Assembly: GCA_963402885.1 (NCBI GenBank) | Contig: OY727101.1 | Span: 14,918,417 to 14,982,416 of the forward strand | Reading direction: 5' to 3' | Length of the DNA: 64,000 nucleotides | DNA from: Antedon bifida | Lineage: Eukaryota; Echinodermata; Crinoidea; Comatulida; Antedonidae | Shown here: positions 33,436-61,276 of the stretch, piece by piece | How positions within the stretch are numbered: the first letter of the stretch is position 1 | How the letters are laid out: each line of letters begins with the position of its first letter | Program-made: the position numbers and the translations under genes | Notes under the pieces: model-generated | What the model saw: only the letters and a program-made list of their open reading frames with translations | Database searches by the model: none | Told to the model about the DNA's origin: nothing

Positions 33436-33531
33436 TGAACTTATGGTTCAAGGACATGTCAACTGCATACTTTATGACCTTTGACCTTATGGTTCAAGAA
33501 GGGCATGCCATCTGCATACTTGATGACCTTT
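33436..33531. repeat. Tandem duplication of the SYT14 terminal codons
   Basis: The stretch encoding the last 14 residues of SYT14 and its stop (33487-33531) is followed in transcript order by a degraded copy. That copy keeps AAAGGT, AAGTATGCAG and TTGAACCATAAG. The unit is about 47 bp and lies in the 3' UTR. Confidence 0.65.
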
Positions 33532-36500
33532 AGAGTCTCTCATCTCATTCCAATGTGCCAACTCTTCCTCGCTGCTATTCTGCAGACCCATTGAGAACCA
33601 GCCTAAAGTCTCTTTACGCTTCATTGCACGTTTGTTGAAGACTGTGTAGAGTAACGTGACGTCAGGAAGCTGAAATTGAGCCACTTGAAAGATGAACGTC
33701 TCTTTGAACGTCGGGTTAGGCTGGCCTCGTCGTATCGACGTCTTGCTCTTGGTCATCTCAAACCCACTCGACGACATCAGTGACACACGCACATACGAAT
33801 CTTAATATAATAAACAGTTTACAGTTTAATTGTATATAAAATTGGTTGGATTGGAACTTCTACCCTTCTGCCCAGCATATTTCATTTAATAATCACTTAA
33901 AATATCACATTGTGACTTAAAACGCCTATATCTCACTACCAAACTTCAAGTACAAAAGTACAACACATACTTAAATTAAATATGTCATACTATTTTAGTT
34001 ATTGAAGATTATTAAACCATCAAACATTGTTCGATGACGATAAAGGAAGTCAGACGACGAGAAGTAAATAATGCAGTTATTTAATAGCATTATGAGATGG
34101 CAATAATAGTTACACAAATTAACTGACAATATGAATCAGGCATTTATGCATAAAAGTAGTGTAGAGGTAGCTTTGTGGTTAACATGCTTGCCTTCCAATC
34201 CCAAGGTCCAGGGTTCAATCCTGACCTAGCGCTCTTTCAACTCCACTCCTAAGCCTCAAAATTAGACTTGGTTTATAACCACGATAAACTATAAAATAGT
34301 TTATCCATCCTTTAATTGGCGAATTTGTGCTCGCTGTTGGATGAGTATGAAATAAAAACTAAATAATTAAAATAAAAAAACAAAAAACATACAAAAATTA
34401 AAAACATTGTTGCCAAAATTTAAAAAATATTTACCTGGTGCACGGCCTGCAGCCAAATTCTTGAAATGGCTGCCTTTGAGAATTTCAACGGATAAACGGC
34501 CAGTCGTTGAGTTATAAGAAAGTCCGACTAGAAGTTCTGGCATACCGCCATGTTGCAACGACTGCAATGACGAGTTGCTTTCACTGTGCGATAGATCTGA
34601 TGAACTAGAATATGGTGATGATGAACCGCTCTGTATAAGAAGAAAATGTTAAATTTTACAGAAGGAAAATAGAATATGAAATAACAAAGTCAATTATACT
34701 TGACTAGAGGGTGAGCTCGCTTCGCTCGCTCCCCCTCTAGGACGTGTAGACGATGGTTCGATTTCAAACAAAAGACATCAATTCTCGCGATGTCATTTTA
34801 TATAATTATTTCCCACAATTTACTCATATGTTTTATGAATATATTTAATTTGATCTTTATGTAATTACTATACCTTCACACGCGCGGTCCGAAAACAAAC
34901 AAAAAACCAAAATGGCTATCGCCACCAAACACCAACGGCCAACTTAGTTGAAACAGGGAGTTGTTTTACAACTCCCTGGTTGAAACCAACAATGCAGGGA
35001 ACTTGCAAGGTGATTGACACACCTTACCCTGAACCCGGAAATAACTTCTACCGCGTGTAGAGTTAAAATTTACCGATTGAAATCAGAAAATTTCTTATAA
35101 AACCCTTTATAATATCTTCCTAAGATAGAAATATGGAACAATAGCGTCGATGTGAAAACTAATGTTATCAAATCTACGTTTCGCGGTACATCTGAGATAG
35201 ATAAGGTAGGTATCCATGGCGGAGATTTGTACCGAAGTTTTTGCATTGTGCTCGCCTATGTCAGAATTAACCATAATTTATATATAGATTAACACACACA
35301 ACAAAAAATGTAACTGTTACATAGATTTTTCCTAATCTTATCAAGTTACAACATATACACAATTCAGTAAAATGTAAACACTGTTAAAAAACGTACATTA
35401 GAACAATATGTACATATGCGCAGATGTGACTGAGCTACCTCGAATAGCTTGTTCCGAGATTTTACATAGAGGTAACGCAGAAAAGCTTTCACACATTTGT
35501 ACCAAGGTTTGTAAAATAAAAGAATTTTGTATGTGAATTTGGTATACACTGTATTAACTAACTGCTATAATGTTCGCCTTGTTTTTACTTACAGTATCAC
35601 TCCTGGCCAGGATTGGTATCGTAATTGTCTGCGTCGTTGTTGTATTTGTATTCAGAGACGAGAACTTTGTCACACATTCGCCAATTAACTGTTCCTTTCG
35701 CATTTTCTCGGTCCCGAATAAACGAAACCTCATTGATGTGCTTGCTAATTCGTGCGGGAAGAGCCGTGTGAAGCGAAATAGTTCTTTAAATTCTGGATTC
35801 TCACCCTCGCGAATCCTTGTCTTTGCCCTTTGTCTCTTACTGGGCATGAGTGCCAAACGAACACGACAGCTTCCCGGGCCTCCTCGATCTTTGGAGGGTA
35901 CGTCAGAAACTTTAACGACTGTGATATTCATCCTGCGTGCCTCTCCGCTGTATGAGAATGCAACTTCCAATTTGCCGACTGTTGGTGGGGGTTCTCGAGG
36001 TTTTACCTGTCAAAAATTATATACAAGTCATTAATTATTCCATGTTTTACATCTCCTAATAGCAAAAAAGTGAAACTCACTCTCATTTTTGTATGTTATA
36101 ATCATAATTATCATACAGTATCATGCCATATTTTGGTGGTTGCTTTAAATTGGGTTAAGCTTTAGTCCTTAACCATAATGATATTGGTATAAACTCATTT
36201 TGAGATACAAACACCTTTATATGGATCTGGAGTGTTTTTTGTGCTCTATTGATCTTTGGTCCTCATGAAAAACTCCCTGAGGACCCTACAAAGTGTCCCC
36301 TTAAATAGTAGTGTTAACAAAATATATAGCCTTCACTTCTTTCACAGGAATGTATTTCCTTAGGGGTGTTACCTGAAAAGGATTTCCCAAATATAATATT
36401 GTACTGGAATCTACTCTATTGTACTCTACAGGGATCCTGTTGGGTTTTCCCCAAATCAAGGTTTAAAAATAGCATTTATCATGTTCTTTAATGTTATAGC

Positions 36501-39500
36501 TATAATTAGCATTGACAGTTTTTATTCATTACCACAATACCAGGCAGTTATTATATTAATTATACTTCTTGATATTATCGTAGATACACCACAAATACCT
36601 CAGATTAAATGATAGAGATACCTTCATATTCATAAAGGTCATAATACTACTACTAACTGTAAGGTTCATTAAATATTGTATCAGTGTAAACATGCCAAAA
36701 AGAAGTTCTTTTTGTATAGATAATCCTAGCTATTAAATATAACAATACTTGTGGCCACGGTTTGAATATGTATTCTATAGTACTATGGTTTTTAGGGTAA
36801 GATCAAATGCCTTTTCCATAGTACTTTGCCTTTCCATTATGTATCTATACTTCGAATACTATATTTCCAGTTTTAAAATATGCATACACTCGTCCTCGCT
36901 ACAATCTACATAACCATAGTAACAACTTTGAAAGTTGATGGTCTCATATACAGCTATGTAAATGGTATAACACCAGTGGTGTAACGCAGAGACACAAGTG
37001 GTCTTCCATTGCTGGAGGCCTTTGGCATTTTAGCCCTTTTCAACATATATCTGGGCTTGCTCCGGGGCCCCTGGGTTTAGCAAGTGAGTGCTCATACAGT
37101 AGCTGTTACGCCACTGTATTACACTTAACTTTCCCCCTCACTTTATCACCATCTAGTTACCCTTTAAAACAACTTAAAAGTTGATGGTTCCATACATGTA
37201 TGTATCTCTCTCAATCTTTGAAAAATTTACCTCTCCTCCCTCTAAACCAATTGTATCGTTTTCATCGTCCTGGTCAAAGAGTCCACCAGAAGAACCAAAA
37301 CTTCCACTGCCTACAGTGCCTTGTTCTACATCACCAAGATCTTCAGTGTGTACTATGAAAAATATTAAAAAATAAAACATTTAAAATAAAGGACACAACA
37401 CAACAATGAAGATTTAAAAAAAAACAAGTAAATAAAATTTCCATTTAAAAATTCAGCTGAACAATATTTAACAGAAATCCATCTCTCTCCTCCTCGTTCT
37501 CCGCACCAGAAGAATAAGTTTTTGAAATATTTATTCAAACTGATCGGCGCAAAAGTATAACAGACCCGAGTGCATCCTTGCCATTCAGTACAGTACTACT
37601 ATTATACGGAAAAGTGATGTTCAATGATGATATTTAATGGTACTATTGTATGATGATTTTGAGAATTTTGTGAGAACTACTACTGTTCTATTCTGTGTAC
37701 ACAATATGAACACTACCTTTTGAATGGTATAAGCATTTGATATTGATAGTGGAGTCTGTTAGGGCTGAAAAAACGGAGAATATCCCCCGACATACTCCAC
37801 TATAATTTAAGATAGAAGGAGCAGATTAACTGAATATAAGTTTACTTTAAAGCTCGGTCTACACTATCAAACTAGTTTGAGAAAAAAGTGTGATGTGCCC
37901 AAATATGGTAGTGATATGCTCAAATATGGTAGTGATATAACATCATCATGTCCATATATGGGCACATCACATCATATAAAGTTTGATGATAGTGTAAATA
38001 AGGCTTAGAACAGGATTTGGTGTGTTATAAAGAAAAAAAACGTTCCTCCTATTTAACTCAGAATCATTCATTATTTGTTGAAAATGCTGTGGAGGAAAAC
38101 AATTTATTCACTGAAATATTTGTTCAATCTACCTGTAAGTGTTGAATTGATCTTTTCCCGAACTCAAATTTACTTTAAAAGCACATGTATCAACGAAATA
38201 TTTGTTTATACCAGCAACAGTAAATTATGCTAATTGTAATTATATGCATATGGTATAACAAGGCAATATAATAATAGTATGCATTGTGTATAAATAACCT
38301 ATTTCAGAGAATAACAATACTGTTAATTAAACATTATTATTGTTGTTGTTAGTATATAATTGCCATTTATAGTTCAGATATTAAATAGTGCATCTCAAAT
38401 GGGGTTGCTGACATGTTCCTAACCACGAAACCATAGGCCTTACAAAACAATTTACAAAATAAAATAATCATTTTCCTTCCTAAAAAAACTTAGAAACCAT
38501 CGTAAAACAATCCAATACATCATTTGAAAAAAAACAAACTACAAAATAATATGAAAATAATAATTTCCATTACAACAATCAATGCAATGGATTTAGATTT
38601 TACAGCACATTTCAACTACATGCTTCTTCCTTGTCCAAGACAGTGGCTGTGTGAACTACACCCCGAGGTAACTCTTTACTTGTCTTGAAAGATGTACTAG
38701 GTTCTTTTTGAATACACATATTATCTGGGAACTTTAAAATTATGATAGATACAAAGCAATTATTCTTAGTGGTCACCATGAAAAACACCATGTTTTTTTT
38801 ATTGCTGATCTACTTTAGTTGAAGATGGAGATATAATAAAAGCCGAGTCTATTTGCTGATTAGAAAGAATGACTATCTAAAGAAATAATCAACAATTTAA
38901 TAAAATAAACCACTTCATATTTGACAGGGTCAAATTAACAATGGCATAATTATCCAGAAAAACTAGATAAAAGTATGATTTGAAAAGTATATAAAGATTG
39001 TGGTATTAATTTTACCACTTAAATAGGCTGCTGGCCATGAACTGGAAGGAACCACAAGCCGTGTATGGTGTCAAAGTCTGATTTTTCCCCATAAAAGTCG
39101 ACAGTTGGTAATCTTGCCAGACACAATCATTTAATCCATCAATACTAATACCAGTCGCTGTCCAATCATTGAAACTTCAAAAGAATCCCTCCTTTTCAAA
39201 CTAGATGCCAGCAGCATAACGTTATATAAAGTTATAAATTGTGGCTACGATACAAGCTTACGTCACGAAAGTGACCTGTAGTAGTTCATGAAACCTTGGT
39301 ATTAACTTTGTATATTTTGAATAAATAAAAAGAACTTGATTCAGCCACAACAAAGAATGAGATGCTAATCTTGGTTCATGTAGAATGTAAAAAGTTAAGA
39401 AGTAGTTTTACCCTTTAGGCTAGTTTACTGTATTTTTTGTTATGTCAATATGCATAATAAACAATCATATATTTATATTTCAAATATGGTAATAATAAAG

Positions 39501-42500
39501 GTGATTGACAGCGATGACCATGCTGTACTAGCGTTAATGAATACTAAGTGTACTGGTAGGCTAAGCCAATATGCTAAAACAAGTATAACACATTAAAACC
39601 CTCAATGATGAGTGACTCATAATCACATAACAAAAACATATTGAAAATGACATACATCAATAGATTTTGTTCATTCTGTATTCCCACGCAAAGTTCAGGC
39701 CTACCGAGTTAAGGTTTTGTATCCTACACAACATACAACTGAACTAGGAACATATTAGTGGAAGCCACCATTTACGACACTGACTTTTCGTTTGTTACAA
39801 AATCTATGGGTACAAAATTAATGTATATTGCTTACGATATGAAAGTCATGCACCAACGATTTTAATCACCTCACCCCCCCTCCCGCAACTACTGATCTGC
39901 GACACAACAGTTTTGTAAAAATAAATATTACTCAAGTCGAACACTTTTCGGTTACGATACTAATACGTGAACTGGTTGACGATACAAAAGAGAAACTTCA
40001 ATCTGAATATACTTTACTCAGCAACAAACTGACGGCCAATTTTTTTATAGAACATCATTTATACTAAAAATTATGTAATAAATCAATAAACAATCCAGAT
40101 ATATTGGGTAGGTTTATTTTACCTCTGTATACATATCCTGACCTCTCCGAACTTGTCCACGTACTACTACAAACTGACGAATCATCAGAATAATTAAAAG
40201 CAAAGCCAGCTAGTCCTGCGTGATTTTGAACAAATGACGGATTCTTTTGTAGTCCTTTCTTACTACTGGCAATTATATACTCGTCCTGTTGCTCGTCCAA
40301 AATGTTATTTACCTCTTCTGCGGTATTCACGTTAACAGAACCATTTGCCTTCGTTTCATTTGATTTCCAAAAGGTGAAAATTCCAAAACCAGGCTGTCCA
40401 AAACTAAAATTTGCACAACAACTCAAGCAACCCATGCTTTTAAGCTAACTATTCACACACAAATGAAAGAATCAGTGAATCGAGTTAAAGTCACTATGCA
40501 AATAATAGCAGGTCACATAAATTGACCTTGAATGATTTCAACCATTGTAAAGTTGAGAAAACTAAAAGCCTGTAGTATATATCGCTTTTAACTGAGAGAA
40601 TATGGGTTTATCAAATGTACAGAAACGAGCTTAAATTTGAGATTATGTTCCAATTAACATAAAACTAGATTTTCTAAGCCTAGAAACTCAATTCATAAAC
40701 ACTATCTGATAATGTCTGTATACATAACAGACTCATTTATTGATATCAATATAAATAATAATAAAACTCATAAGAAGGAAGTCATGATTTAACATTTCAA
40801 TCTCTTCATTTCAACCATTATAAATATGAACTGAAAATTATTGACAAATGAGGTCTATGATTTAAACAAATCTGGTGTTTTTTAATTATATAAAAATCTT
40901 TCTTTTCTTAATCAAATATATTATTCTGTTAATTATTTTTAAGGTGTTTCATAAGGACCAAAGTAGAAATATGTTTGGCATGGTTGTAGGGTTAAAAAAA
41001 ATCTAACCATGACACTGTTTTCCATTTCTTTTAACATTAATATTTGATAAAACATTTTTAGAAATTGAAATGATTTCATTTGGAAAACATTCTAAAACAT
41101 TTCATTTGTTCATTAAAAAACAATTAAAAAGTAAATATAAGGTTGAATTGCATTTAAATTTTCTTCAAAATATCAAATTTGTTTTGTCCAAATACAGTTT
41201 ATACTATTCATTTCATTTCTCTTTAATTGTTTTTATTTCAGACTACATATCCATATGTATAAAACCAAAAACTGTATAAGGCCTACTGTGCATGTGTTTA
41301 AATTAAATAAAATGACAAACAAAAGATTTTCTAAAAACCTTTGACTATAATATAATATATGATAATTATATGCTTATAAAGACCAGAAAAATAATAGAGA
41401 AATGGTTCACAAACCATGAATATTAATTGAGAATTATGAACACCTAATTAGTTGAAAAGGCAATTTATATGTTTATCATGTGAACACAATCAAGCACACA
41501 ATGTTAATATTCTAATGTATATTGTATGGCATAATCATTACATTATCAACTGGATTTATCCAAGAGGATCTCATTATCTTGTCATTGGTTGTAATGAATC
41601 ACCAATCATTCAGCTATCTTTTTGACACAGCTCAGATGTACCATGTTAGTTCACTGGGGTAAAGCTGCTTTCACACCGTGCCCGGATTGGAAAAAAAAAA
41701 TCATAAAATATCGTGGAAAATGGGTTCATGAAGTGGTGAAGCATAAGATCATTCTCACCAAATTTGTATGATTTGAATCATAGAATCAAATTCATAGCAA
41801 TGGATCAAGAAGCTTTGTCTTCTGAAATCATACATTTTTTTTCTTTTGTCCAATTAGCAGTGAGCATGAATGACCTTGCTTGACAACAAATAACCAAATT
41901 TGTGCTTAATGTAAAAGCACGCTCAACGCTCGCGATATTTTTCTCAGGGCGCCGGAACGAATCCGGCGCGATATGATGGCCACATGTGTACACTGAATCT
42001 CCATCCTACCCTCTGATATTTCACCCTATGATTTACTATAATTATATGTCAACTCAAATTCTACATCCTAAACCCAATTGTAAGCCTGCCTGTTCAAGGT
42101 AAGGCAATTGTACTCAAGTCATTGCTAATGTATTAACATTGAAGAATTATCCAAATGATGCAAGCAACTTTGACCTTCTACTTTCAAAGTTCAAAACCAA
42201 CCATTATCTAATTTTTCCGTAAAAAATAACTTCTTTTATTTAAGAATTACGCGATTTTTAAAAATCAAGGCAATGCAAGGTCTTAAAAACCATTGTCACA
42301 ACTGTATGCATAGAATGCCCACTGATAACAAATGCATGTGCACAAGTTTAAACCTCTTTATTTGTACATGTACAATGGATTAAAGAGACTTATATACGGA
42401 GACATATAAGAGACCGCTGAATAGAACTACACTACAACAGCAAGTGATATGGGCCAGTGAACAGCATAAAGCACCAACACCTAAAAGCTAGAACAAACTG

Positions 42501-45500
42501 TCTTCATCTATCTGCTATCTATGAATTCCTGCAACTTTGTGAAACTTTCCTAAACTTCTTTCAAAGACTATGTTAACAGACTTATTAACAATCTTAAATT
42601 CTACCTTTTACACTGCTAATTTTGATTTCTTTTTTTACTATAAATAGTTTATATAATTTGAGTTAAGGTTCACATATTTTATGTTACGGATTTGTTTCAG
42701 TTTTGTGTCCGCTGACTATCATCTAATTCTGTTTTTTGTTTGTATATTCAATGTTTTTGTCATGGGTAATAAAAGAACGAGAATATAAAAAAAAGCGAGT
42801 GAAAGCTCCCATTTTTATGCACCTAAGCAGCATTTGCTACATAGAATAATAGTCTATTTGGTTTACCAAAGAAAAAAATACAAACATAAATCATTTGAAA
42901 CCAGATGAATTTTTTTTAGAACATTTCTTAAATGTTTAACATATGCTTCACCAATAACTACTTACTATCTTCAGAACTTGTTTGAAAGTTTACAATTCTG
43001 TGCAAAAATCCAAAAGTGGGTACTGCACCACCATTCAATTCAGCTGAAGAATCCTTGTCTACTTTTGGGCTAAGTAATGCAGATTTTGCTAAACTTTTCC
43101 ACATATTTTCCTTCATTTTTGAATCAGTTACCAAGTTGCTTGTTTCCATTTTGTTATCTTCCGGGTTATGATGCGAAAAATCTGGAGCAGCTTCCGTGCC
43201 ATCATTAAACTCAGCTGAAGAGTCTTTGTTGCCTTTTAACCTATGTAATGCCGATTTTTCTAGACTTTTCCACTTATTTTTCTTCTTTTTTGAATCAGTT
43301 ACTAAATTGCTCATTTCCATTTTGTCATCTTCTGGTACGTGATGCAAAAAACCGCAGCATCTTAAAATCCAATAAATCATTTTTGTTACTGGTACTTTTA
43401 CCAACAACTCCAACATATACTGTACCTTGTAAACTTAATGTCACCATGAAATAAAAGACAAAGTAGTATAAAAAACAGCAAAATAATTGAGAATATGGAA
43501 TGTCTCCAGGTATACAAACAACACAATGTTGGCAATAAAATGTTACAACAATGTGTATGGCCCTACATTGTATAAAAACTTCTTAAAAAATAATTCTATG
43601 TCTACAAACTGAAGAACATCGACAAATACACTAACTGTATGGCTAAATAGTTAACTTTGTTTGACAAATTTTAGGTCTCGGATCAGTAGACCAAGTTCAT
43701 ATTAACAAAACTATACTAATCTACATTTGTATTAAGAGTGTATCTAAACTTAGTTTAATATAATAGGCTTTGTATTACCATTGACACTTCCCTTTACCAT
43801 TGACACTTCCCTTTGGAATAGCCCATTTTTTAACCTTTGCTATTTTAATTAATCTAAGTATTTAAAATTAGAATTTTTCTATTTCTGATTGTGAATTGTT
43901 TAGTTTAATGCCTTTACACTGAGTAGTCTTCTGACCACTCCGCCTGGGCTGCTTTGGTGTGGTTACGGATGAGATCTTATTATTAGTATACACCCAAAAA
44001 TAATGGTAAAATTCTGAATTAGTGGCCATATATATTTACCTTTACCAATAGAATGTATTAATATGATTTATACTGCAATTGGAATGTACCGCTTGACATC
44101 TTTAGGATTGTTTTTATTGTTATTTTTGCTTTAGTCTGTTTTATTTTGGCATCCCTGACCAAGCATTTACTTTCTTGATCAAGCCACCATTATTTGGAAA
44201 TAAATGTTATTTTGATTGATTGATTTAACTAATACCGAAAATTACAGGATAGACTAATTTTCCTGAAGACCTCTTTAAGAGCAGAGGTTGGAATCTATAG
44301 CTCAGATATTGGCAGATCACATATAAAGTACATTTGCTAGACTAAAAGTAACATTGTTACATTGCTTTCTAGTACTGCTGCGGTAAAGTAAATTTGACAA
44401 ACAATTACAAACACTTTAGCACATAACACACCATCGTGTATGGTGACAAAATAACAATTTAAACAAATTATCATCATCTCTTTTAGATTTGAAAACATTT
44501 AACCATAGAAATATTATATAGTGAATACCTCTATGATTAAACTAATAATTCATTTATCAATAATACATACCAGATTCTGAATCATTAACAAAAAAAGACA
44601 CAGGAGAAAATGCATTGAAGAAGCTTTTTGGTGCTTGTTTGGTAGGTGGTGGTGAAGTGGATTCTTCTGAACTACTGCTTAAAGAATGTGTACTTTCATA
44701 GCTTTTTGCTAAAGACTTGCTGCTATTGCTGTTTATCAATTTATTGATTTCCACTGATTCTTCATCATATTTTGGTGTACATTTACAACAAAAATGGAAC
44801 AACCACTCCATTGATAATACTTGGGAAAAACAGTTTCTTGGATGTAATTGGTCAAAGTACTGTATATAAAAGGAGCAATTCAAATTCAGTCACCAACATT
44901 ACCATGAGGAAACTCTTCTTGCTTAAAAAAAAGTAAAAAGTACTTGGGAGTACGACTTCAAGACAGAATCCAATGGAAGACTTTAAAGAAAAAGTTTCTT
45001 CGGTCAAAGTACTGATTAAGTAAACAGCAATTCAATGCAGTCACCAATACCATGAGGCAACTCTCGTAGCTAAAAATTGTTATCAGGTAATATTCTAGTT
45101 TTAAATTCACATCCTAAAAGTCAATGGCAAGGTTCCTTCCTGAAACAGATATTCCAGAATGATTTGTGAAACCTGAATTTTAATCTCTTAAAATGTCAGA
45201 AGTTTCCAGATTGACTATTACAAAAGTAAAAACTTCCAAATTGTTGAAGTGAGCAATTATTTCTTTATAGAATATTTTCAAAAATACATTTCAACTTTAG
45301 AAAAACAATTTAGAAGCATATGTGTAGTATACTATAATGAAGAATAGAATAGCAAAATAAAAACTATAGCTACTGCATCAAGTTGTAGACATTTTCCAAG
45401 TCCATTTGGTGACTGCATAAACTTCAGATGTTTCCAAATAAAATAACTTTTAATCAAAACAGTTTGCTAGAACAACAATACTGCATATAATTAGAATAAT

Positions 45501-48500
45501 AAGCAGTAATACTTATAGTTTAGACAATAATCAATCCGACTAAAACACAAATTCTAGTGAAATAATACTGAAAACAGCAGGTGTCAATTGTTCTTGCAGT
45601 TTTAATGGAATCTCTAAAAAGTGAACCACAAATGGAATTTTTTCCACCTTACAATGAGTTCATAATAACAACCTTGAATTGGACCAATTTTAAATGCATC
45701 AATAGTTTAAAAATGTACAATCATATCAACACTATTATTTTTAGTATTAGTTTATACAAATTGTACAATGAATTGTATGATGGTGCAGAAGAAGAAAGGT
45801 CATTAGTTCAAGTTGGCTTATTATTTGTAAGCAGCCAGTTGGTGACCATAATCTCAAGTCTGGTTTAGTAGAATTACTACAGACAAATTCTATTATGTAA
45901 GAAGACAAGTTCGAATGAGAAATGAACACTAGTAAAGTTAAGATTGGGTTACACCATGTGATTCAAAAAATCGAAATAGTGTAAGGTTGAGAATGTTGGG
46001 CTACAAAAATCATCTTCTGGAGAATGATGCAACTAATGAATAATCAAAATATGATAAAAAGAATCATTCACATAGAAATCAAATTATTATCTATTTATTC
46101 TGATAAGTTGTTTAATGTGGTATGAGCCTATAACTTTTGCTACCGATGGGTGTGGCCATGATCTTTCTAGGGAGTTGGTAGGAGAGTTTCAAATATCCAT
46201 TGCTAGTGAGTTGTGGCTAGCCTAAACTGCAATAAACATGTAATAAAGTTACAGTAGTAAAAAGCAAATAACACATCAATATATTAGAATGAAATATGGA
46301 CAAAAGGGAAGGAGAGAAAAGGCAACTACTTAACTTCCACTTAAAAATGTGTAAGTACTGAACTGAACAACACTTTAAAGACTTACCACCAGAGCAATAA
46401 CTACTGTCAACTGTATAAGTAAAACTTGGAATCTTTTTAGCCGGAGTGCAAGTAGATCCATTGGAGTAACTCGTTGATGTTGATGAACATTCTGAAGAAT
46501 TTAACTTTGATGATTTTTGTTCTTTTGCTTTTAGTAGTAACTGGCTATTTTCCAAGCATTCATCTTCAGAATCCAACTGTTCTGAACAACAACATTTTAG
46601 CACATAACACACCATAATTGTGTTTGATGACAATTTAATTATACCAATCTCAATGGTAAATAATCAAAAATTAATGTTATTATATATCTGATAACAACGC
46701 ACAAAGCCTCAATATTGAAATTTATAATCTTGACTTAAAAAGAGTATATTTAAATAAAGTCCAAACTTGCAGCAAAACATCTGTAGTATAATCTTGACTT
46801 ATACAGTCAATATATCTTTAAAGTCCAAATTGGAAACAAATCTTTTATACAGTATATTCCATAGGAGGAAAGTACTGTACTACCACAGTACCATATACAA
46901 ACATCTAAGAGTCCAATGTTACAAGCAAAATCACAGAGATTATACTGGTAGCTGCAACGATATTATGAACATCTGGAAGGATCATAAAATCTTTAAACTG
47001 TCCATTTAGAAATCAACTCCTAACAACGCTGGTATCAATTTACCTTTGGTATATTGCACCAAGATACAATAAAAAAGTTATTGATGCACTTTACTACTTT
47101 TAGCATCTAATAGTGAAAATGTATTACAGGACAGAAATATACAATTAAAACTGTCCTTCTAGAATACTGGATAAGTTTGGTTCCTCACAAGCACATAGAA
47201 AACCATACATACCCCATAAAAAAATGTACACACAAATGCCAAAAAGTATACAGTATGGTCTTACTTGTGTACTTCAAAAGAGCTGTGATCATTCAGATAA
47301 TCTTATTCATTGTTCTTCTAAAAATAGTGTTAAATACAAGCCGAGATGTATTCGCTTTAAAACAATCAGATATTGCTAGGCATAATTGCTAAAATAAAAG
47401 CCACTATGTTCAATTATAAACTCACTGAAAAAGGCTTCTTTTTAAACTACTGTAGAGAAAATAAGTGCATATATTCTAAATATATCATGGATCAAAATGT
47501 GATATTCTACCGTATTAGTTTTTTCAACGGAACAAAGGTCTATAGCAAATAGAAATAGATTTATAGGAATATGTGTACAAATATATATTTTATTTATAGG
47601 AATACGAGTGCAAATAGATATTTTATAGGAATATGTGTGCAAATAATCTCTATTATTCTAAATGCATTACAACATAATAAAAACTTAGTTTAATGACATC
47701 CATTCAGTAGTAGATAACATTAATCTCTTTATTCTAGATTATAGTACAGGTAACTGTTGGTGAAATAAGGAAGATGTAATTTTGTTATGTTTTATTAAAT
47801 GTTGAAGTTGATTAACATTTTAGACCTAAAATAGATTAAATTTGTAGAGAATGTTTTACCTGCTCTTTCTGGTTCAACGTTTTGTTCACCTTTCAGATTT
47901 GTTGGGTAGAACTCCTCTGTACCTGCACTTTTAACTGATGAGGGCCTTCTAGAATGCTCATAGTCTCTCACGCTTGGAGATCTTGAACGTCGGATCTCTT
48001 CATCTGGAATGTCTTGTGCATCGTAAGGAAAGTCAGCTAATGACCCTTTCCGATAATCTAAATCCCCAGGTTGTGCAAACTCACTGGTTGCTCCCCTGAT
48101 AACAAGCTCATCGTCAATAAGGTATTCTCCCTCATTATTTGGATCATTCTTTATTTCTACTAATCCATCTTGTTCATCATTGTTGTTATTATTCTCTCCA
48201 TTTTCTTCTGGTTTTTGCTCTTTCTTTTCCAAACCAAAGAATGTTGTCACAGATGTGAAAGAATCTCCGACAGAATCTCCTATTGAAGTGACCGTTGAAG
48301 AAACACTGTCGCCAATGGAACTAAACTTTCCACCAACAGTAGAAAAAAGATCATCCAGCGGCATAATGATGATCACAAAGTTAAAAACATTTAATAAAAC
48401 ACAACTGTTCTACTCAAAACAATAACTAAGACTATCATAGTTCCAACAGATAATGATGCGTCAGTATGCTTCCAACAAATCGGCAACAAAATTCCATATG

Positions 48501-51500
48501 AACAGAAATTTAACATCGACAGAGGTGTGAAAAATCTATAAAGTTTAACTGAATCTGTTCCAAAAGGTAAATACAGGTTCTGCACTTTTCTCCAACAGAT
48601 GTTCATTCCCAAGAAGACTACAGACAATAATACCTGAAGCTCTCCTATCTACATGCATATAATACCTGCAATCAATTAACTAGAATATTAATATGACCAT
48701 GGACCATGACGTAATCATGGATAAATAAATAGTTAGATAATGATAAAAAAAACATTGGGGGTAGTACCATCACATAAAAAAAAAGAATATATAATTTTAA
48801 AATGTATTATTTTTTTAACGTTTTTAGTTTGTTGAAGCATTTAGATATAAATAAAATGTATTGTTTCAGGTTACAGAAAAATGGAAATTTAAAAGGTGAA
48901 TGATTAATGATACATCAAAAATGTCAAATTATTCAGATATGACGGATCAATGAATATACTGTATATGCAATTATTTAAATTATCAGATCTTTTGAATGTC
49001 ATAAAATGCATATACAATAATTTCAATTATCAAATTTTTTTTGAATTTCATAAAATGCACATACAATAATTTACATTATTAGATTTTTGGATGTCATAAA
49101 ATGCATATACAATAATTTAAATTATCAGATTTTTGAATGTCATAAAATGCATATACAATAATTTAAATTATCAGATATTTTGAATAAAAATAAAAATTAG
49201 GTCAGGTAGTGTTATTCTATTTTTCCTAACTTTAAAATGTATGATTTAAACTATACTAAACAGAAAACTAATTTTCAAATACTCAAAAGTTCCTTCAATT
49301 GTTTTTCTTTAAATTATCCTTATAGTGATCAGTCAATGTATCAGAAAACTCAAGCATGGAAAACACCAAAGTGTACTGGAACAAGTTAAATAAAAGGAGT
49401 GATAAAACACAGTACTGGAATGAGTCACAAGATGAAGTGTTAAACACCAAACTGTACTGGAACAAGTTGGCACAAAATGTTTTAAAGATGCAATTTCACC
49501 AGTACACAAGTAACAATTCCAGTTGGAATCAAAAGCTTTTTCAGAATGTTTGTAGATAGTATACTGTTTTTTAAACAAATAAACTAGAATCGCATAATCC
49601 AAGGTGCAATGGTTCCAATTGAGGATATTTGCAAGTTTCATAAATTCACAGAATGTCTTCAATTTTTGAAAATTATACTCCCAATAAAGGTTTGTAATAA
49701 ATGTAACATTCAAACAAAGATAGAACTGTAAAATATGGTTGATGGTTCAGTACTTATTAACACCAACTTCTTGAAATTATATATCACATGTAGATTAGAA
49801 ACCGAGACAACGTGTATTCATGTTTGTTCTCGAAAGGCGTGCAGAGAACAAAACAGCCAATCAATGATAAAGCATAAAACACAACAAATAAATAAGGACA
49901 GAGAATCAATATTAGTTTGGAAAACAAACCGTTTATATAGTTCTTTGCTGAACTTGAAAGCAAAACAAGTTGTAAGTTTACATAATGTGTGAATCATTGA
50001 AGGGGTGTTTGTGTTGGTTGTTGAGCCGTGTGACGTGATCTAAGTTGGATCGGCTGGTGTAAAGTATGCATATATATATATATATATATATATAATAAAG
50101 AGTGGAGAACTTTAATTCAAAGAAGATGGCAATTGGTCATGTTAAAAAAGTCATTTAATTTGCTGTACTCCGATATAATTTTACTACAGTATAAAAAAAT
50201 GTCAGGTAATTCACGGGCATAACATAAACCCATGACGTTCACTAGCCTGGTGTTCCTACCTAGACCACCAATCTTTCGCTGATAGATTCAAGCCCAAGGA
50301 AGCAGCAGGTACTGCACCAACAGGATAACTTAAAATAAATTTACTTATGTATTGAAACGAAAGGGCCTCAAGAGGCCTAATGGTGGGAGTACCATATTTC
50401 ATATTTAACGCAATTCACAATTGGCTTATAAAATCATTTATTGACTTGATTGATTTTCCCTCCCTCCCTAATATCCACTACATGTACCTATTATTGTATA
50501 CATTTTAAGTTTAACAATTACAAAGCGTCACAATCAATATACATATTGATTTGCAATCTAGTATATCACAAATGATACAATGCCGTAAACACACCGAAAC
50601 AAAATGTTAACCAAATTTTTGTCTTTTATTTTCAATGTTTTATCGATACATTTTTCAACTTGTAGAATTTAAGAAAGATTAATAAAATAATTGACAGTGT
50701 AGTTAATCTAAAAGCTGTCGCTCAACTATTTTCAGCAAAATCCTGTAGGCAGGAGGTTTTTCTCCGCAAAAGTGGCAAAAATCGTGGCAAGCCATGCTAA
50801 AGACCTATTTTCCATCACTTTTGCTACTGGTCTTTTGTTTGAAAAGGGCATTTCAGGCAAAAAGGCAACTGGTTACGAGCTTGAGCTATATTTTCAAACT
50901 ATTTGAGCTCACATTCAATATAGCGACTGATTCTTACAACGGCAATCAACATTGATGAAAGTGATTAAAAGGAGTTGCAAAACTTAAATTTACTTATTCA
51001 GGATAAGTTGAAAGCAAAATTTAAAACAAAAATGTATTATATAATATCTAAAATCCTTGTAACAATATATATTAAGAAATAACTTATTAACTATGTACAT
51101 TCTTGTTTTGGTTTTTAAATATTAAATCAAATAAAAAAAATCTCTAAAAATGAAATTATATTTTATAATAAATAAGTACCATAATATTTAACAAAAGATT
51201 TAATATTTAATATTAAACTAATACCTTAAGTATACATAATTATGATAAATAAGTGGAATTAACAGTTTACAGTTTATGCATAGTCAAATAAAAAGAATTG
51301 CACTATAATTTATAATATAATTTTGTGTTTACCCGTGTCATTCAAAAAATTACTTTTTTATATGATTAATATCTATTAATATGAATTGACACAAATAATT
51401 TGTATAACAAATTGTTACTACTGATCCCCTACTTAGCCTAAAGATGGAATGATTGGTAATACACGATTTTAGTAATTTGAAAATTCGGCACCTTTTATAC

Positions 51501-54500
51501 ATCATCTTTAAGACTTTTTTTTATCGTTATGTTCTTGGAAAGGCGTCATATAAAAGCTTAATAATAGTAATAATAATATAACAACAGATCTTTTTAAATA
51601 AACTATTCAGAATTAGTTTTTTTTCTTAATAGGTAGGAGACTTTATAGTTTGTTAAATTTACTGTATAAACACTTTCTTTTTTCTTGTATTCTTCTCAAT
51701 TTTTTCTCCAACAGGATTACAGGTACTTGATTTTTTGTTTCAATTAATCTGCAAAAAAACAAAAAACATTTATAACACTGTATATGATAAAATTAATTTC
51801 TACTTAAGGTAATATAATAATATAAAATATACTGTATAAGTATCTTTAACCATTTACTACAGATGTAATTAATATAACTGTACATAACTGTAATATAACT
51901 GTACATAACTGTAATATAACTGTACATAACTGTAATATAACTGTACATAACTGTAATATAACTGTACATAACTGTAATATAACTGTACATAACTGTAATA
52001 TAACTGTACATAACTGTAATATAACTGTACATAACTGTACATATTCAAATTACTTTATTGATACATTTTGAGTAATAATATAATTGTATATACTGTATAT
52101 ATAATTAATGCCATACCTAACATTACATGAATATTCTTTCCTCAATAAAGGATAATAACTATTGTAGTATTAATTTAATATGCAATTTAATATTATTAAC
52201 TAAACGTACATTGTCAAAAAACTCAACAAGTAAAATATGCAGTAAAGAAAAATAAAAAAAATCCCCTTTCTAATGACTTTTTTTGAATATGTATAAAAAT
52301 ATTAATATATGTAAAAATTATGCAGTTGGTTGTTATTATGAGCCATAGTAGAGACCATTAAAATGCTAACATATGTTATAAAATAAATGCTATTTCACAA
52401 ATTCTAAACAACCAATCGTAAAAAGGTGCAAAAAGCAAAAAAAAAAAAAAAAGAACCAAGCAAATGGATACTTACACAAATTGGCATGCAAAAAAGGTTG
52501 ATATGCATTATGATAGTGATGATGGATGGTGGTGCTCTACAAAATGCTACAAAAAAGTTGTAAAATCTTCATCCAAAAAAACGCATGCATGCAATCCACG
52601 CGGTATCACAATGTGCGGAAAAAGATGCAAAAGAGAGTAAAATGTTTGTATTTTAAACAACTAAATTTGTTTATAATCTTGATGTCTTTTAAAAACTATT
52701 TAGAGTTTGAAAAAAATTTTATGAAATGATCCACTATATAAATTATAGCGGATAATACCATTTTACATTCATTTGTACATTTCACAAAGTATACAGTTTT
52801 GTTCAAATTGACAAAATGAATTTGAGAAAGGTTATAAAAATCACCTATTTGAATAAAAAGAAGTAATTTGATTATTTAATATAAAGAAAAACTCACATGT
52901 AAATACATCTGTTATATATAAAGAATATTTGAAAAAAAGAATAGTTTAAGTTGGATTAGAAATATAGAAAAAATTAGTATTTGATATACTGTATAATAAA
53001 GTATCCGTGCATTTATCAGAGCAAATAAGGGCCTGTTCAGACTTAAGTTATTTACCCAGGTAAGTTGGTTTCATATGCACAGTTACTGTGTAGCTGATTT
53101 TGGTAGGTAGAAACCAACTTACTCTGGTACAAATAACTAAAGTAGGCCTACAATAAGCCTGAATTTACTTAAAGTCAAAGGGTGTGATAAGTGGTTAATA
53201 TGACATATAAATAATAACACACAGCAATGCAAGTATATAGTATTTGTGCAAAAGATGAAGATAATGTCACATGACATTAATATAATAAAAGCAAACATAA
53301 ATATTAATATGAAGCTTTTATTTCGATACTATTATTTTAATGACTTGTTTTTGTATCACTGTATTTTCACTTTCTCTAAAATGATGAGCCTTGTACCCAG
53401 TGCATATTGCATTGAATACTATGTCGGTGTCAAAGAAAGGTCTGAAGGGCTGAAACAGGTACACAGGGAGACTTTTTACAGTATACACAGTACCTGTAAC
53501 ATAATATAAACCTACAAATCACAAGTTTTATATACAGTAGTACTAATAATAGCAGGCCTCAACCATAAGACTTGTTTCACCACTAGAGTCATCTACAACT
53601 TGGGCTTCCAATGGGTCAGTTGATGCTACTGTACTACAACTCGTTGATGCTATCGATTTTCTTAGGCCTCTGTCATCCTTTGGAACGGTTTACCCATCTT
53701 TATTCGTCAGGTTACCTCAATTGCTTAGTTTAAACCTGCTCTGAAAACTCACCCTTTCTCTTATTTTTTCGATTTTAATTTATTTTGTTAAGTGCAATGC
53801 TTTGCATTGTGCGCTATATAAGCCCATTTATTATTATTATGTTTTATTATCGTCCAATACACTATTATTTTGAACAATTTAAAAAAAATACAGTACTACT
53901 ATCCAATGCGACTCCTAATAATATTATTAGTATTTTAGATATTTTGTGCATTACCATACTGATTCAACTATAAGGTTACCATGAGCCACATCCCCCTTCA
54001 TCATAAACCAAACTTGACCCCGATAATTGGTATCGTAGAGGTCGTGGAGCATGACCCTATAATTTAGTTAGTATGGTTCTAGTTGTTATCACTGCAAGCT
54101 TTCATTTTGATTAGTATTCCTTTAAACCTCTTATAATATTAATTATTTTGATGTTACCTGCAGTGTAAACTTTGGACTCAGTGGTTTTTTTAAGAAGGTT
54201 ATAAAAACTTGATCCTGAAATGATTGCATTTTTATAATGGTATAAACAATAAACATAATGGATAGACAACACAAACCAGAGTGGTGCTGGTGCTGGGCGG
54301 TCTATACCTGCTGTTTATCTGGATAAACCAACATATGCCGTTTCCTCACAAAAGGGAGAACATAACTTCCCGAAAAGTACCAACAACTTTGAACACCTCT
54401 GTAACACAGTGGTATAGTCCATGAGCCAAGGCGGCAAACTTTACCATTTGAATGTACAAATAAATTATTAATGAGGACAACTTTCCAAAAAAAAAAATGA

Positions 54501-57500
54501 TGAAAATGATATGGGACAAATTTAGATACAGTATGGCGAATTAAATGATCCAGATGTAATGTAAGTAAATATAACACGCCAACTTTATGAAAAGCAGCGA
54601 GTCAATGTTTGTACTTATCCCAATAAAATCAACAAAAATGGGAATGTCTTATTGAATCAATAAGAATATCCGTATGCTATGGACTTACTTTCTAAGGGCG
54701 CTCTTGATGCAGCTGCTACAGACTTTTTCTTATAACCACTTATGCTAGGCTGACGAGAAAGGCGACCAAAGCTGAGAGACTGCTGGTACTTCAGTAACAT
54801 CTCATCATCACTATCTGATGATGATTCATCTTCATCATAGCCATAGCTTCCTTCTAAAAAATAAAATGAAGAATTAAATGAAGAACAAAATGAATGAAGA
54901 ATTAAATAAAGCATTAAATGAAGAATTAAATGAGAAGATAAACGATAAATGTCCTTGGAATCTAGTGTACATAGTATGCAACTGTTTGTGCTTTTTGTTT
55001 TAGTGTGCTGGGTCCAAATCTTGAGATTCTTCACAGCTCCAAAAAACAGTTCTACTAAGCATTCTATTTTAGTTACTGCAGTACTAAACTTATTAAATAG
55101 CAATACTGTATGATTTAATTTGCTTTATTAATTAATATTATGTAGTTAGAGGTTTATCGGTCAATCACTGCAATAAACAGTTGTGTATGATTGAAAATTG
55201 AAAATAAAGTTACTATAATTATCATACCTAAGCCTTGTTTTTGTTTTTTCTCTTTCTCCTTTTTCCCTTCCTCCATGCATGGACATCCTCCGCAATTGGC
55301 AAAACATAGTGACTTACTTAGGTACAAGAAGAACAAGATGACCATGAATAGAAGGACGACCACTACAGTGAGGAACACAATAGCCTGGTCAGGAACTGAA
55401 AATAAATAAGAATTTTTTTAATTGAGGAAAATAGAGGTTTCATTGCAGTAGATCAAAGCTATTGACAAGAATGTACCTTTGAATGTAACATGAAGGTGAG
55501 GGGAGGGAGAGAGGTGGGGAAGGGAGGGAGAGAGGTGGGGAAGGGAGGGAGAGAGGTGGGGAAGGGAGGGAGAGAGGTGGGGAAGGGAGGGAGAGAGGTG
55601 GGGAAGGGAGGGAGAGAGGTGGGGAAGGGAGGGAGAGAGGTGGGGAAGGGAGGGAGAGAGGTGGGGAAGGGAAGGAGAGAGGTGGGGAAGGGAAGGAGAG
55701 AGGTGGGGAAGGGAAGGAGAGAGGTGGGGAAGGGAAGGAGAGAGGTGGGGAAGGGAGGGAGAGAGGAGGAAGAGAGGAGGAAAAGAGGAGGAGGAAGAAG
55801 AGAGAAGGAGGAGGAAGAGAGGAGGGGGAGGGAGAGAGGAGGGATAAAAGTGGGAAGGTAGTAATAACCTCATTGACATGAATTTGATAATTAAAATTAC
55901 AGATTTACTGTAATTCCCCTACAATGACTGTTTAAATTACTACTAGTACTACAGTACATGTTTTTAGGGGTACAGTATAACATGGGTTATGAAATGGGGC
56001 AGAATTTCTCTGTTTGGTAGGCCTTCTCTATCAGAAAATATATAACATACCGATATAATTTCAAAGGGAAAAAGGGATTGATATTATACAAAAAATAAAA
56101 TGGACCAACTAGGTAAAGACATTGAACAACAAAACAGTATACATATTTCCTAACTACATACCACCAACATTAACTACGTACAGGATAGCTTACATTATAA
56201 AAGAAATATGAATATCAAATGACTAAGTTGTACATTACAGCACATTAATAATAAATAGTGTTCTACAGTATTAGGAAATGACTGAACTAAACAATGAATC
56301 TTAACATTTGGTCAAAAAAACAATACTGTTAGTTATATTTATAATCACAACATGTATTTATTTATTTCACTTAAATGATGCAGAATCTCTGTAGCATAAC
56401 AAGAACAAAAAACACCAAGAAAAAAATTATGTCAAAAAATAAAAATTGGATAACAACACTGAAAAGTACTGTACATGTAGTAAAATATCAAGAAAATCCA
56501 TTCTAAAATACTTACGTGAAAAATCTATATTTTTGAATGCGGAAATGAAAAAACAAATTTTTATATTCTTTCTTTCAGTATAATACAGGAGTGGTTACAC
56601 GTTTGAATATTAGACAAATTGGAAAAAGGACTGACCTGTTACTAAATTTAAGCAGAGCAGGCATTGAATATTTTATAGTCTGTCAGAATGGAAGAAAGTC
56701 TGGCTGTGTCAGCCATCCTCCATAATTACATACAGTATACTTTATTCATCATTCAACACTGCAAAAAGCCTAGCAATTTACTAATGTTGATAATTACTTT
56801 GATTTTAACATCTGATGTACAGTGTGTAGCATTAAATATTTTTTTTACAATCAAACAGATGGCAAAAATAAATTGGTTTCAGTATTGTATGCATGTTTAT
56901 TTCTAAAATTTAAAGTAAAAATAAGGCCTTTTAAAAAAAATAAAATTGTAGGTGTGCTACAAATTGCACTCCTCAATACATTCAGTGGTGCTGTAGGTGT
57001 ACTGTTTGTATTTTGGTGTGTAGAAGTTTACCAAATTTAAATGTAATTTGTTGTAAATCACACTCCTCTAGGGCAGTTTAGGAGTGTGTTAGGTGAGTGA
57101 TCGCACTCGCTCACCTCAAAAGAAAAGGCCTGAAATATAATAAATAAATTTAGAATTGGAAATACACCACTAGGTTATAATAAATAGTATTAATTGATGG
57201 ATTTTTTATGAATGGTGATACAGTAGTAAGGTATCTTCTAGTTTTAGACTTATATTTTACCCCTCAAACCAACAATATTGAACTACAGTAACCAAGCAAA
57301 TACTGCATACTAAAAATTATTTTAAAAAAGAGATTTGTTTGATACAAAAACAGTGAAAACATCCTACCTTTTTGATACATTTGACTAGCATATGCTTGCT
57401 ATAGTGTAATTTTAAACGATACACGGGACATTTTTATTATTAGACACCAGTGATGCATATTATCTAGATGGACTTATACTTTTACTCTCATTACAGGCCC

Positions 57501-60407: not shown

Positions 60408-61276
60408 ATGGTTGCATTTCCGATGATAAAATTAGTCTCTTTGGCTATGAAACAAATTAGTAAACCTCTTGCTAAACGTATTCAGATTTCAGCAAAGAAC
60501 AATAGTTTTTTAAGACGATATATATGTATGCCACCAGCTCAATGTAAGCCATTTCATGTTGTCAGGCTATCGCGACCTAGGCTTAATATCATGTTTGTTT
60601 TCTATTGTTACACCATCCAAGACCATCGGCAGGTTTTATCAGCGAATCAAAGTCAATTCGTACCACCTTATTTGTTTTCAATTTCATGTAGGCCGATTCC
60701 TTTCCATTGGTTTAAAGTTTATTTAGAGGGTTTGCCCTCTTTTAAGATCATTGAAAAAAATTAATTTTAGGACAAAGTTTTTACATTTTTAATTAAAAAT
60801 AATAGCATTTTATATATGACTATTGATTCCAACCGGGTCCAACCTTGTCATGAAAAGTCGAAATGTTTACAGTGATTTTGTGTTTTTATACTGTATTTAG
60901 AAAGTACAGTACTGTCATTTTTGAGCTGTTTCTTTTTCTAGTACACCATTGGTTAGAAGTAAACTTAAAGATGAGATCTCTAGGCCTTGGAAACCCAAAG
61001 AATGTAAAGCCTTTACCAGAAGAAGCTGCTGTAGAACTTGGAGCCGAGATGCTCGGTGAGGGCATCGTCTTTTCCGTGGCTGTTGGAACAATTGTCTTTG
61101 AATATTGGCGGCAGTCGAGGAAAGAGGAGCAAAAAGAGGACGTGCAAACAGAAGGAATTAGATCATTAAATGAACGAGTTTCAGAATTGGAAATATTATT
61201 AGAACAACAAGATGCGAGGTTACGAGAAATGAACAGAATAGTTGTTACGTTACCGTCCTCATCATCCAAAAAGTGA
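60408..61276 (+). CDS. OPA3: Optic atrophy 3 protein homologue
   Basis: OPA3 is a mitochondrial membrane protein needed for normal mitochondrial shape and lipid metabolism; human mutations cause optic atrophy and 3-methylglutaconic aciduria. Two exons, 60408-60543 and 60942-61276, join in phase (T|TA) for 156 aa (human 179). Family features are MVAFPMIKLVSLAMKQISKP, RRYICMPPAQ, HHWLEVNLKMRSLGL, KPLPEEAAVELGAEMLGEG and VFEYWRQSRKEE. A predicted coiled coil (SLNERVSELEILLEQQDARL) is at the C-terminus. The two-exon structure matches the vertebrate gene. The C-terminal tail is shorter than in human. Confidence 0.95.

Follow-up and report, generated by a model that had tools for sequence, protein, structure and literature searches.

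A SYT14/16-type synaptotagmin gene of the crinoid Antedon bifida whose alternative first exons may exchange the membrane anchor

The closest described relatives of the gene considered here are the Syt16 transcript variants reported by Craxton (2010) from S. purpuratus and two Ciona species, which lack the transmembrane (TM) domain and differ in their N-termini; vertebrate Syt16 also has forms with and without the TM (PMC2823689). The function of SYT14/16 is hardly known, though it probably does not involve Ca2+ sensing (PMC8164606). The invertebrate Syt16 of Craxton belongs to the same family as the Antedon bifida gene, which likewise has TM-less N-terminal variants, but the available portion of that survey makes no mention of an array of five starts or of cysteine/myristoyl or 11-mer starts; invertebrate Syt13 is a different synaptotagmin, with two exons as against six starts in Antedon bifida (PMC2823689). 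Outside the family, the KChIP subunits (KCNIP1-4) of Kv4 channels swap anchors in a similar way (PMC3973911). These are unrelated EF-hand Ca2+ sensors with variants spread across several vertebrate genes; an amphipathic 11-mer class is not mentioned in the available text, and their anchors are known from biochemistry (PMC3973911), whereas those of Antedon bifida are read from sequence. The original prediction that no synaptotagmin of this kind had been described must be tempered: TM-less Syt16 variants were known (PMC2823689), but no paper title among the matches listed concerns a five-start array or acylation-type starts of a synaptotagmin. The Antedon bifida array would be an addition both to the known TM-less Syt16 variants and to KChIP-style anchor swapping. 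It differs from arrays of homologous variable first exons, in which the variable exons are alike, in that its exons 1A-1E are not recognisably homologous, no pair of them being joined by blastn within the intron.

The gene lies on the minus strand of the window, the 64,000-nucleotide stretch of Antedon bifida DNA analysed here, and a search for protein relatives identifies it as a SYT14/16-type synaptotagmin. All 37 named proteins among the best 40 of the 120 relatives listed are synaptotagmin-14 or -16 (or -like), the other three being unnamed, and the top ranks are taken by isoforms X1, X3 and X5 of A. mediterranea synaptotagmin-14-like and by Anneissia. These names, together with two Pfam C2 stretches (E 1.1e-29) that confirm a tandem C2A-C2B, bear out the SYT14-type assignment; an AlphaFold model of A. 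mediterranea X1 has two beta-strand-rich stretches consistent with C2A-C2B. The core common to the starts begins with a link exon (37231..37352, phase 1 in and phase 0 out), which needs a one-base carry-in at a phase-1 acceptor at 37352, as expected, and continues through the C2A exon (35593..36006, Pfam C2) to two further exon calls, one with the C2A-C2B linker and the start of C2B (34435..34630) and one with the rest of C2B and the stop codon (33487..33800). Alignment to Syt1, at what we take to be its Ca2+-ligand positions, indicates that most, though not all, of the ligands are replaced in both C2 domains, and the C2 pair is probably Ca2+-insensitive.

A TM N-terminal form with juxtamembrane cysteines, a SYT14/16 trait, is present. 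Its first exon, MVTIENSD (58233..58257, phase-1 donor GTGAGT), is the single minus-strand match in the window to the pattern of A. mediterranea isoform X3 (P0003). It is followed by a transmembrane exon (55228..55395) with the residues of P0003, in which the hydropathy across the 19 residues of the TM segment is 3.45, and by an acidic Ser-rich exon (54689..54853). Both exons are phase 1 in and out, and the second can be joined to 37352, in agreement with the earlier proposal; a 57-nt cassette exon at 54158..54214 is used by A. mediterranea isoform X3.

About 17 kb separate the acidic exon from the link exon, and within this intron lie five minus-strand exons, each with its own ATG preceded by an upstream in-frame stop and each ending at a phase-1 GT joinable to the acceptor at 37352. 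Their positions, ATGs and donors are as first described, except for the start of 1B. Each occurs at one place only in the genome; a DNA search of the genome with 44300-46700 found no second exon array, the 37 places returned being the segment itself and 36 short dispersed matches. Minus-strand ATG-ORFs of at least 100 codons number five between 37353 and 54688, whereas 300 simulated strands had 0.13 on average and never more than 2; four of the five contain 1A, 1B, 1D and 1E. The fifth, at 49641, belongs to none of the called exons.

Exon 1A (40123..40435) begins MGCLSCC and matches A. mediterranea isoform X5 (P0004) at 99 of 104 residues (95%), with the same junction. Exon 1E (47860..48364), an amphipathic segment of Ser/Thr/Gly-rich 11-residue repeats, is identical to A. 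mediterranea X1 at 165 of 168 aligned residues (98%) and to Anneissia at 127 of 163. X1, X3 and X5, which like the other isoforms cited are database gene models, share an identical 348 residues from VHTEDLG onward, and upstream of this point X1 has exon 1E, X3 the TM exons and X5 exon 1A; these are alternative first exons joined to one core, as in the KChIPs. Thus, both the proposed replacement of the TM segment and the presence of the same exons in related species hold for 1A and 1E (1A in A. mediterranea, 1E in A. mediterranea and Anneissia), whereas no protein record was found for 1B, 1C or 1D, though the near-identical A. mediterranea is annotated, in a database clustered at 90%, where P0003 represents a 3-member cluster.

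The start of 1A is, by the usual consensus, of the myristoylation-plus-palmitoylation type, its MGCLSC resembling the MGCxxC of Fyn among the SH4-type dual acylation signals of Fyn and Lck; acylation of 1A is putative. The amphipathic moment of 1E exceeds that of shuffled sequences (P 0.0004 at 98 degrees for residues 5-45, which were selected by eye), which supports the description of 1E as Ser/Thr-rich and probably amphipathic, and a lipid-sensing helix is a candidate role. AlphaFold gave the 1E part of A. mediterranea X1 no helix, at pLDDT 30-40 in a run on a 23-sequence alignment with a mean pLDDT of 52.

A position-specific coding model scores the exon's own frame best of six for all five exons, the lead being tiny for 1D (0.015 bits per codon). 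By the same model, 1E outscores all 41 other intron frames of at least 60 codons, and the scores of 1A-1D are equalled by one to three of them. Synonymous codon usage, judged against a reference of little power (7297 codons from the 18 usable loci among 30 GPCR loci), sets neither 1E nor 1A-1D apart from the 41 other frames; six trusted exons pooled outscore 40 of the 41. This test misses even 1E, although 1E is conserved in a second crinoid genus.

The exons, their phases and their possible junctions, the A. mediterranea models for the TM form, 1A and 1E, and the comparable choices in other echinoderms described below lead us to give a probability of about two in three to a gene in which one cytoplasmic C2A-C2B module has interchangeable membrane anchors, provided by alternative first exons. 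Transcripts would start at the alternative first exons and all would splice in phase 1 to the link exon at 37352. The anchor would be a TM helix from exons 58257-54689, a putative myristoyl-plus-palmitoyl type from 1A, putative palmitoyl-type cysteine clusters from 1B, 1C and 1D, or a putative long amphipathic segment of 11-residue repeats from 1E. Depending on its anchor, an otherwise identical C2 pair would go to a different membrane or have a different residence time.

It is somewhat unlikely that the real starts are the TM form, 1A and 1E only, with 1B-1D as chance or decayed frames, relics of unused duplicated first exons. Exon 1B ends with a phase-1 GT at 42966, as proposed, but its start is more likely to be at 43380 (MIYWILRCC; 42966..43380) than at 43416 as proposed, because the ATG at 43380 has A rather than T at -3 and gives a CC at residues 8-9 like those of 1C and 1D. 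Like 1B, exons 1C (44571..44811, MEWLFHFCCKC) and 1D (46387..46615, MVCYVLKCCC) are open to a phase-1 donor, and in all three the called donor is good and the top-scoring one of the ORF; the called donors of 1A and 1E are third in rank but are confirmed by the A. mediterranea protein models. The cysteine clusters predicted at the starts of 1A-1D are seen, that of 1B being near-terminal only with the 43380 start. A CC near the N-terminus is seen in 7 of the 188 ATG-ORFs in the window, including 1A, 1C, 1D and the first exon of a neighbouring gene; 1B enters this count only if it starts at 43380. These features, and the best own-frame scores (weakly for 1D), argue for real exons, as does the internal 171-nt tandem duplication of 1B, whose halves differ by dN 0.21 and dS 0.80, a ratio of about 0.27 that suggests modest constraint; the antisense frame is equally conserved (35 of 57 residues), with a stop in each copy.

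The missing protein records and the coding scores matched by other frames speak for relics, as does the 84-codon length of the 1C ORF, which is unremarkable beside a plus-strand maximum of 87. A 198-residue query assembled from 1C, 1D and residues 1-42 of 1B drew 80 candidates, none with E <1. There are also clear decayed copies nearby. Five local duplications occur in the intron, three of them touching exons (inside 1B, at the start of 1C and at the start of 1D): 44969..45076 (minus strand) is a decayed tandem copy, now lacking its ATG, of the sequence that runs into 1C (blastn E 4e-11 against 44928-44807), and 44410..44454 (minus strand) is a decayed copy of the 1D start with a stop at codon 10 (E 5e-5 against 46638-46591). 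It is likely that the crinoid set was enlarged by tandem duplication in the 1B-1D region. What joins 1B-1D to the common core is their splice phase and donor. The case for 1B-1D as starts is made by their open frames and donors, the CC that they have in common near the N-terminus and the relics of duplication, and they are presumably expressed.

A separate promoter for each start is probable. One or a few promoters could give the same proteins if noncoding exons upstream were alternatively spliced, and untranslated exons are not visible in protein models; however, this is unlikely, because the own ATGs, the upstream in-frame stops and the spread of the starts over about 18 kb are what alternative first exons usually show. 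That the alternative N-termini simply produce soluble isoforms, with TM removal as the function and no anchoring role for the starts, would suit the description of Craxton's variants merely as TM-less in the available text (PMC2823689) and the disorder of 1E in AlphaFold, but is improbable. Against it, near-N-terminal cysteine clusters are found not only in 1A-1D but also in starts of echinoids, asteroids and ophiuroids; two urchins and two starfish have an MGxxxS with cysteines after it, and the moments of amphipathic starts are higher than those of shuffled sequences. The start cysteines are presumably acylated.

Comparable sets of starts, at the same junction, occur in gene models of sea urchins, starfish and a brittle star, and anchor swapping therefore looks echinoderm-wide; with the crinoids, four of the five extant classes have such alternative starts in their gene models. 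TM, cysteine-cluster and amphipathic starts are all found among the echinoid, asteroid and ophiuroid models, and isoforms diverge at a matching G-V/T-R-x-D/E-D point in L. variegatus, Patiria, two Asterias species and Amphiura. The S. purpuratus isoforms diverge at the same point by eye, a one-residue downstream difference masking it in the suffix test. Five of the six non-crinoid amphipathic starts tested exceed shuffles (P <0.03, uncorrected). Profiles of the urchin, starfish and brittle-star cysteine and amphipathic starts did not pick out 1A-1E above chance, the MG-type cysteine starts of urchins and starfish failing likewise for 1A-1D; the best matches were a 1D frame (E 0.38, amphipathic profile) and a 1C frame (E 3.5, cysteine profile), and the crinoid exons appear to share a design with the other echinoderm starts, without being provably orthologous to them. 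With a mollusc/nemertean cysteine profile, built from 16 spiralian SYT14/16 N-termini of the cysteine type, 1A-1D did not rise above chance, and neither 1B nor any other array exon ranked in the top 15 among 2021 frames of the window. The idea that 1B matches the mollusc CCGFF start was therefore dropped.

An acidic dileucine motif, [DE]xxxL[LIM], which was selected post hoc, occurs in 6 of 13 echinoderm cysteine-type starts against 0.52 expected. It was rejected as a hallmark of this class, since it is also present in 4 of 7 amphipathic (0.81 expected) and 4 of 10 TM starts (1.07 expected); it occurs in 2 of 2 in genes B and C, and in 1 of 17 spiralian cysteine-type starts (0.68 expected). 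As a sequence motif it offers a lead to possible endosomal sorting only.

The set of starts is probably old in echinoderms. A tentative extension, to which we give a little less than even odds, is that anchor swapping is ancestral in echinoderm SYT14/16, where one Ca2+-insensitive C2AB module would be given any of four anchor types (transmembrane, myristoyl-palmitoyl, palmitoyl-only and amphipathic helix), that the crinoid cysteine set was tandemly duplicated to give at least six starts, and that the TM and non-TM forms of vertebrate SYT14 and SYT16 are the divided remainder. If anchors are exchanged as proposed for Antedon bifida, SYT14/16 would join the KChIPs as an instance in which alternative first exons decide the anchor, with gene models in four echinoderm classes. 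A gene with a fixed C2 pair, in which the anchor alone is exchanged, would put directly the question of what the anchor contributes, and the natural SYT14/16 anchor variants would be ready-made constructs for testing that contribution.

The SYT14/16 gene runs from 58257 to 33487 on the minus strand of the window, in a genome of 315.6 Mb (27 contigs), and its nearest protein records among the matches listed are synaptotagmin-14-like isoforms of Antedon mediterranea. Its exons, all on the minus strand, comprise the first exon of the transmembrane (TM) form (58257-58233), the TM exon (55395-55228), an acidic exon (54853-54689), a cassette exon (54214-54158), a link exon (37352-37231), the C2A exon (36006-35593), a linker exon (34630-34435) and the C2B exon (33800-33487). 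Pfam detects two C2 stretches in the product, and alignment to Syt1 indicates that most of the Ca2+ ligands of Syt1 are replaced in both. The same is stated of fly SYT14 (PMC8164606). Two 21-bp minisatellites lie in the introns, at 51870-52058 and, immediately upstream of the TM exon, at 55495-55832. An OPA3 gene on the plus strand (60408-61276; Pfam E 4.4e-26 over 60863-61276, with a probable earlier exon recognised by eye within the ORF at 60408) lies head to head with the SYT14/16 gene, facing its start.

Five further exons lie between the acidic and link exons on the minus strand: 1A (40435-40123), 1B (43380-42966, by its likelier ATG), 1C (44811-44571), 1D (46615-46387) and 1E (48364-47860). 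The arrangement described in the original prediction is real, each exon having its own ATG and a phase-1 GT donor. Five ATG-ORFs of at least 100 codons occur on the minus strand of 37353-54688 (those of 1A, 1B, 1D and 1E and an unassigned one at 49641); 300 simulated strands averaged 0.13 such ORFs, with at most 2. The longest on the plus strand is 87 codons, so that 1C, at 84 codons, is unremarkable by length. By a splice-donor matrix, the called donor is the top-scoring one in frame for 1B, 1C and 1D (3/3) and the third for 1A and 1E. The coding score is best of six in the exon's own frame in all five, by a slim margin in 1D; the scores of 1A-1D are, however, reached by one to three of the 41 remaining frames in the intron that span 60 codons or more, and 1E alone outscores them all. 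A CC pair within the first 12 residues is found in seven of the 188 ATG-ORFs in the window, among them 1A, 1C, 1D and a neighbouring relative's first exon; 1B adds to these if its start is 43380. The ORF at 49641 (49333-49641, 102 codons), in the array region upstream of 1E, contains a short internal repeat, and short stretches at about 45910-46335 (minus strand), mostly of about 75 bp, recur at 36 or more other places in the genome and are probably small mobile elements.

Other crinoids supply isoforms using two of these starts. The isoform records in all species are database gene models, and it is these that form the evidence. In A. mediterranea, isoforms X1, X3 and X5 have in common 348 residues beginning VHTEDLG (347/348 identical in A. 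bifida), preceded by exon 1E in X1, by the TM exons and cassette in X3 and by exon 1A in X5. The 1E form as a whole is 98% identical to its A. mediterranea counterpart; exon 1E matches at 165/168 aligned residues there and at 127/163 in Anneissia, and 1A at 99/104 in A. mediterranea. Starts 1A and 1E have such records in related species, but no protein or transcript record was found for 1B, 1C or 1D; protein searches with their sequences gave no independent record, the sole match, to a query that also included 1A, being the A. mediterranea 1A isoform.

Besides the frames, donors and CC pairs already described, 1B, 1C and 1D are favoured by duplications, since three of the five local ones in the array intron touch these exons. 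One lies inside 1B (E 1.4e-35), one runs into the beginning of 1C (E 4e-11; copy decayed, ATG lost) and one copies the start of 1D (E 5e-5; copy decayed, stop at codon 10). The two halves of 1B differ with dN 0.21 and dS 0.80, and 35/56 residues are identical, compared with 30.0 when the same changes are placed randomly (P 0.023). An antisense frame is equally conserved (35/57), with a stop in each copy. There is modest evidence, from sequence comparison, of coding constraint, in 1B only.

Two neighbouring relatives carry similar starts, each with one C2A-like domain and a first exon of the cysteine type that ends in phase 1. Gene B (24497-27556, plus strand) begins MACLTCC (24497-24809) and continues at 26421-26506, 26623-27021 and 27368-27556. 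Its one C2 domain shows 38% identity to the C2A region of SYT14; no C2B was found, and the gene appears to be a half-length SYT14 duplicate. Gene C (21791-19085, minus strand), a second half-length relative, has a first exon beginning MSLVCFKNC (21791-21620), followed by a long exon rich in Ser (20836-19671) and by one that is C2A-like but diverged (19474-19085; 34% identity). Among 2021 window frames, the gene B first exon is picked by A. mediterranea 1A (E 0.0077) and by a profile of the second urchin/starfish cysteine type (E 0.011); since the latter signal weakens with shorter profiles (E 0.14 and 0.3), kinship with these starts is only suggested.

Outside the crinoids, echinoderm isoforms offer comparable N-terminal choices at the matching junction. 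Besides a TM start in each, there are MGGKMSCCCC and MTCLVCLKFCP in S. purpuratus; MAFDEFTQFIGSFISSL and MGGKMSCCCC in Lytechinus variegatus; MGKKSSLCCCC, MCWKFLSLCPP, MAFDRFRQWAEEKL and one start that carries MFDSVTEWITEVVQSM beginning at residue 17 in Patiria; MGKAGSLCCCC, MLDMLTDWFGEVVQSM and another non-TM start in Asterias amurensis; and MAFGRFTEWVGETV and one start that carries CCCCCC beginning at residue 25 in Amphiura. For the sea cucumber Apostichopus, the 120 matches listed include a TM start only. Conservation is lower in these alternative N-termini than in the common part: between Patiria and an Asterias species, 36% for the MG-type and 42% for an amphipathic start against 83-84%, and between the two urchins, 57% for the MG-type against 93%. 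The second cysteine type is 70% identical within urchins and 74% within starfish. The arrangement is conserved in principle across echinoderms.

It is also partly foreshadowed in print. Craxton 2010 names invertebrate members of the SYT14/16 group Syt16 and describes Syt16 transcripts without a TM domain and with variant N-termini from C. savignyi, C. intestinalis and S. purpuratus, as well as two alternative N-terminal exons in most invertebrate Syt13 genes (PMC2823689). The statement that no synaptotagmin is known with such a promoter array calls for softening in view of these variants; a literature search of incomplete coverage, with many subscription papers outside it, found no title on such an array or on acylation-type alternative starts. 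Cysteine-type starts also occur outside echinoderms, since at least 17 non-echinoderm records among the matches listed (15 named as mollusc or nemertean, two unnamed) have a cysteine cluster replacing the TM segment; such clusters are possibly a wider bilaterian feature. A profile built from 16 of these 17 starts failed to single out the exons of the crinoid. The mollusc and nemertean SYT14/16 records include P0046, P0059, P0063, P0083 and others, those of molluscs often reading MFxKKL...CC.

The starts differ in the anchor that they would provide. The TM form has a classical synaptotagmin start. The cysteine clusters stand as MGCLSCC in 1A and as CC at residues 8-9 in 1B-1D. MGCLSCC, and the MGxxxS followed by cysteines in four starts of two urchins and two starfish, are, by consensus, putative myristoylation-plus-palmitoylation signals; 1B-1D, in which the six residues preceding CC are largely hydrophobic, would be a palmitoyl-only type. 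Exon 1E is, as proposed, Ser/Thr-rich and amphipathic: it has 54% Ser/Thr/Gly, one basic residue and 11-residue repeats. Across residues 5-45, a stretch picked by eye, its moment at 98 degrees is 0.39 (P 0.0004, 5000 shuffles). The moment of the Anneissia counterpart was reached in 0/5000 shuffles. The composition of 1E is of the kind found in lipid-packing sensors. AlphaFold predicts no helix in the 1E region; this does not conflict with folding on lipid but lends it no support.

The nearest working parallel to an anchor-swapped SYT14/16 is the KChIP family, in which one core exists as myristoylated, palmitoylated or transmembrane variants, produced through alternative promoters and first exons (PMC3973911). 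In SYT14/16 the common part is the cytoplasmic C2A-C2B pair, and the starts would place this identical pair on different membranes.
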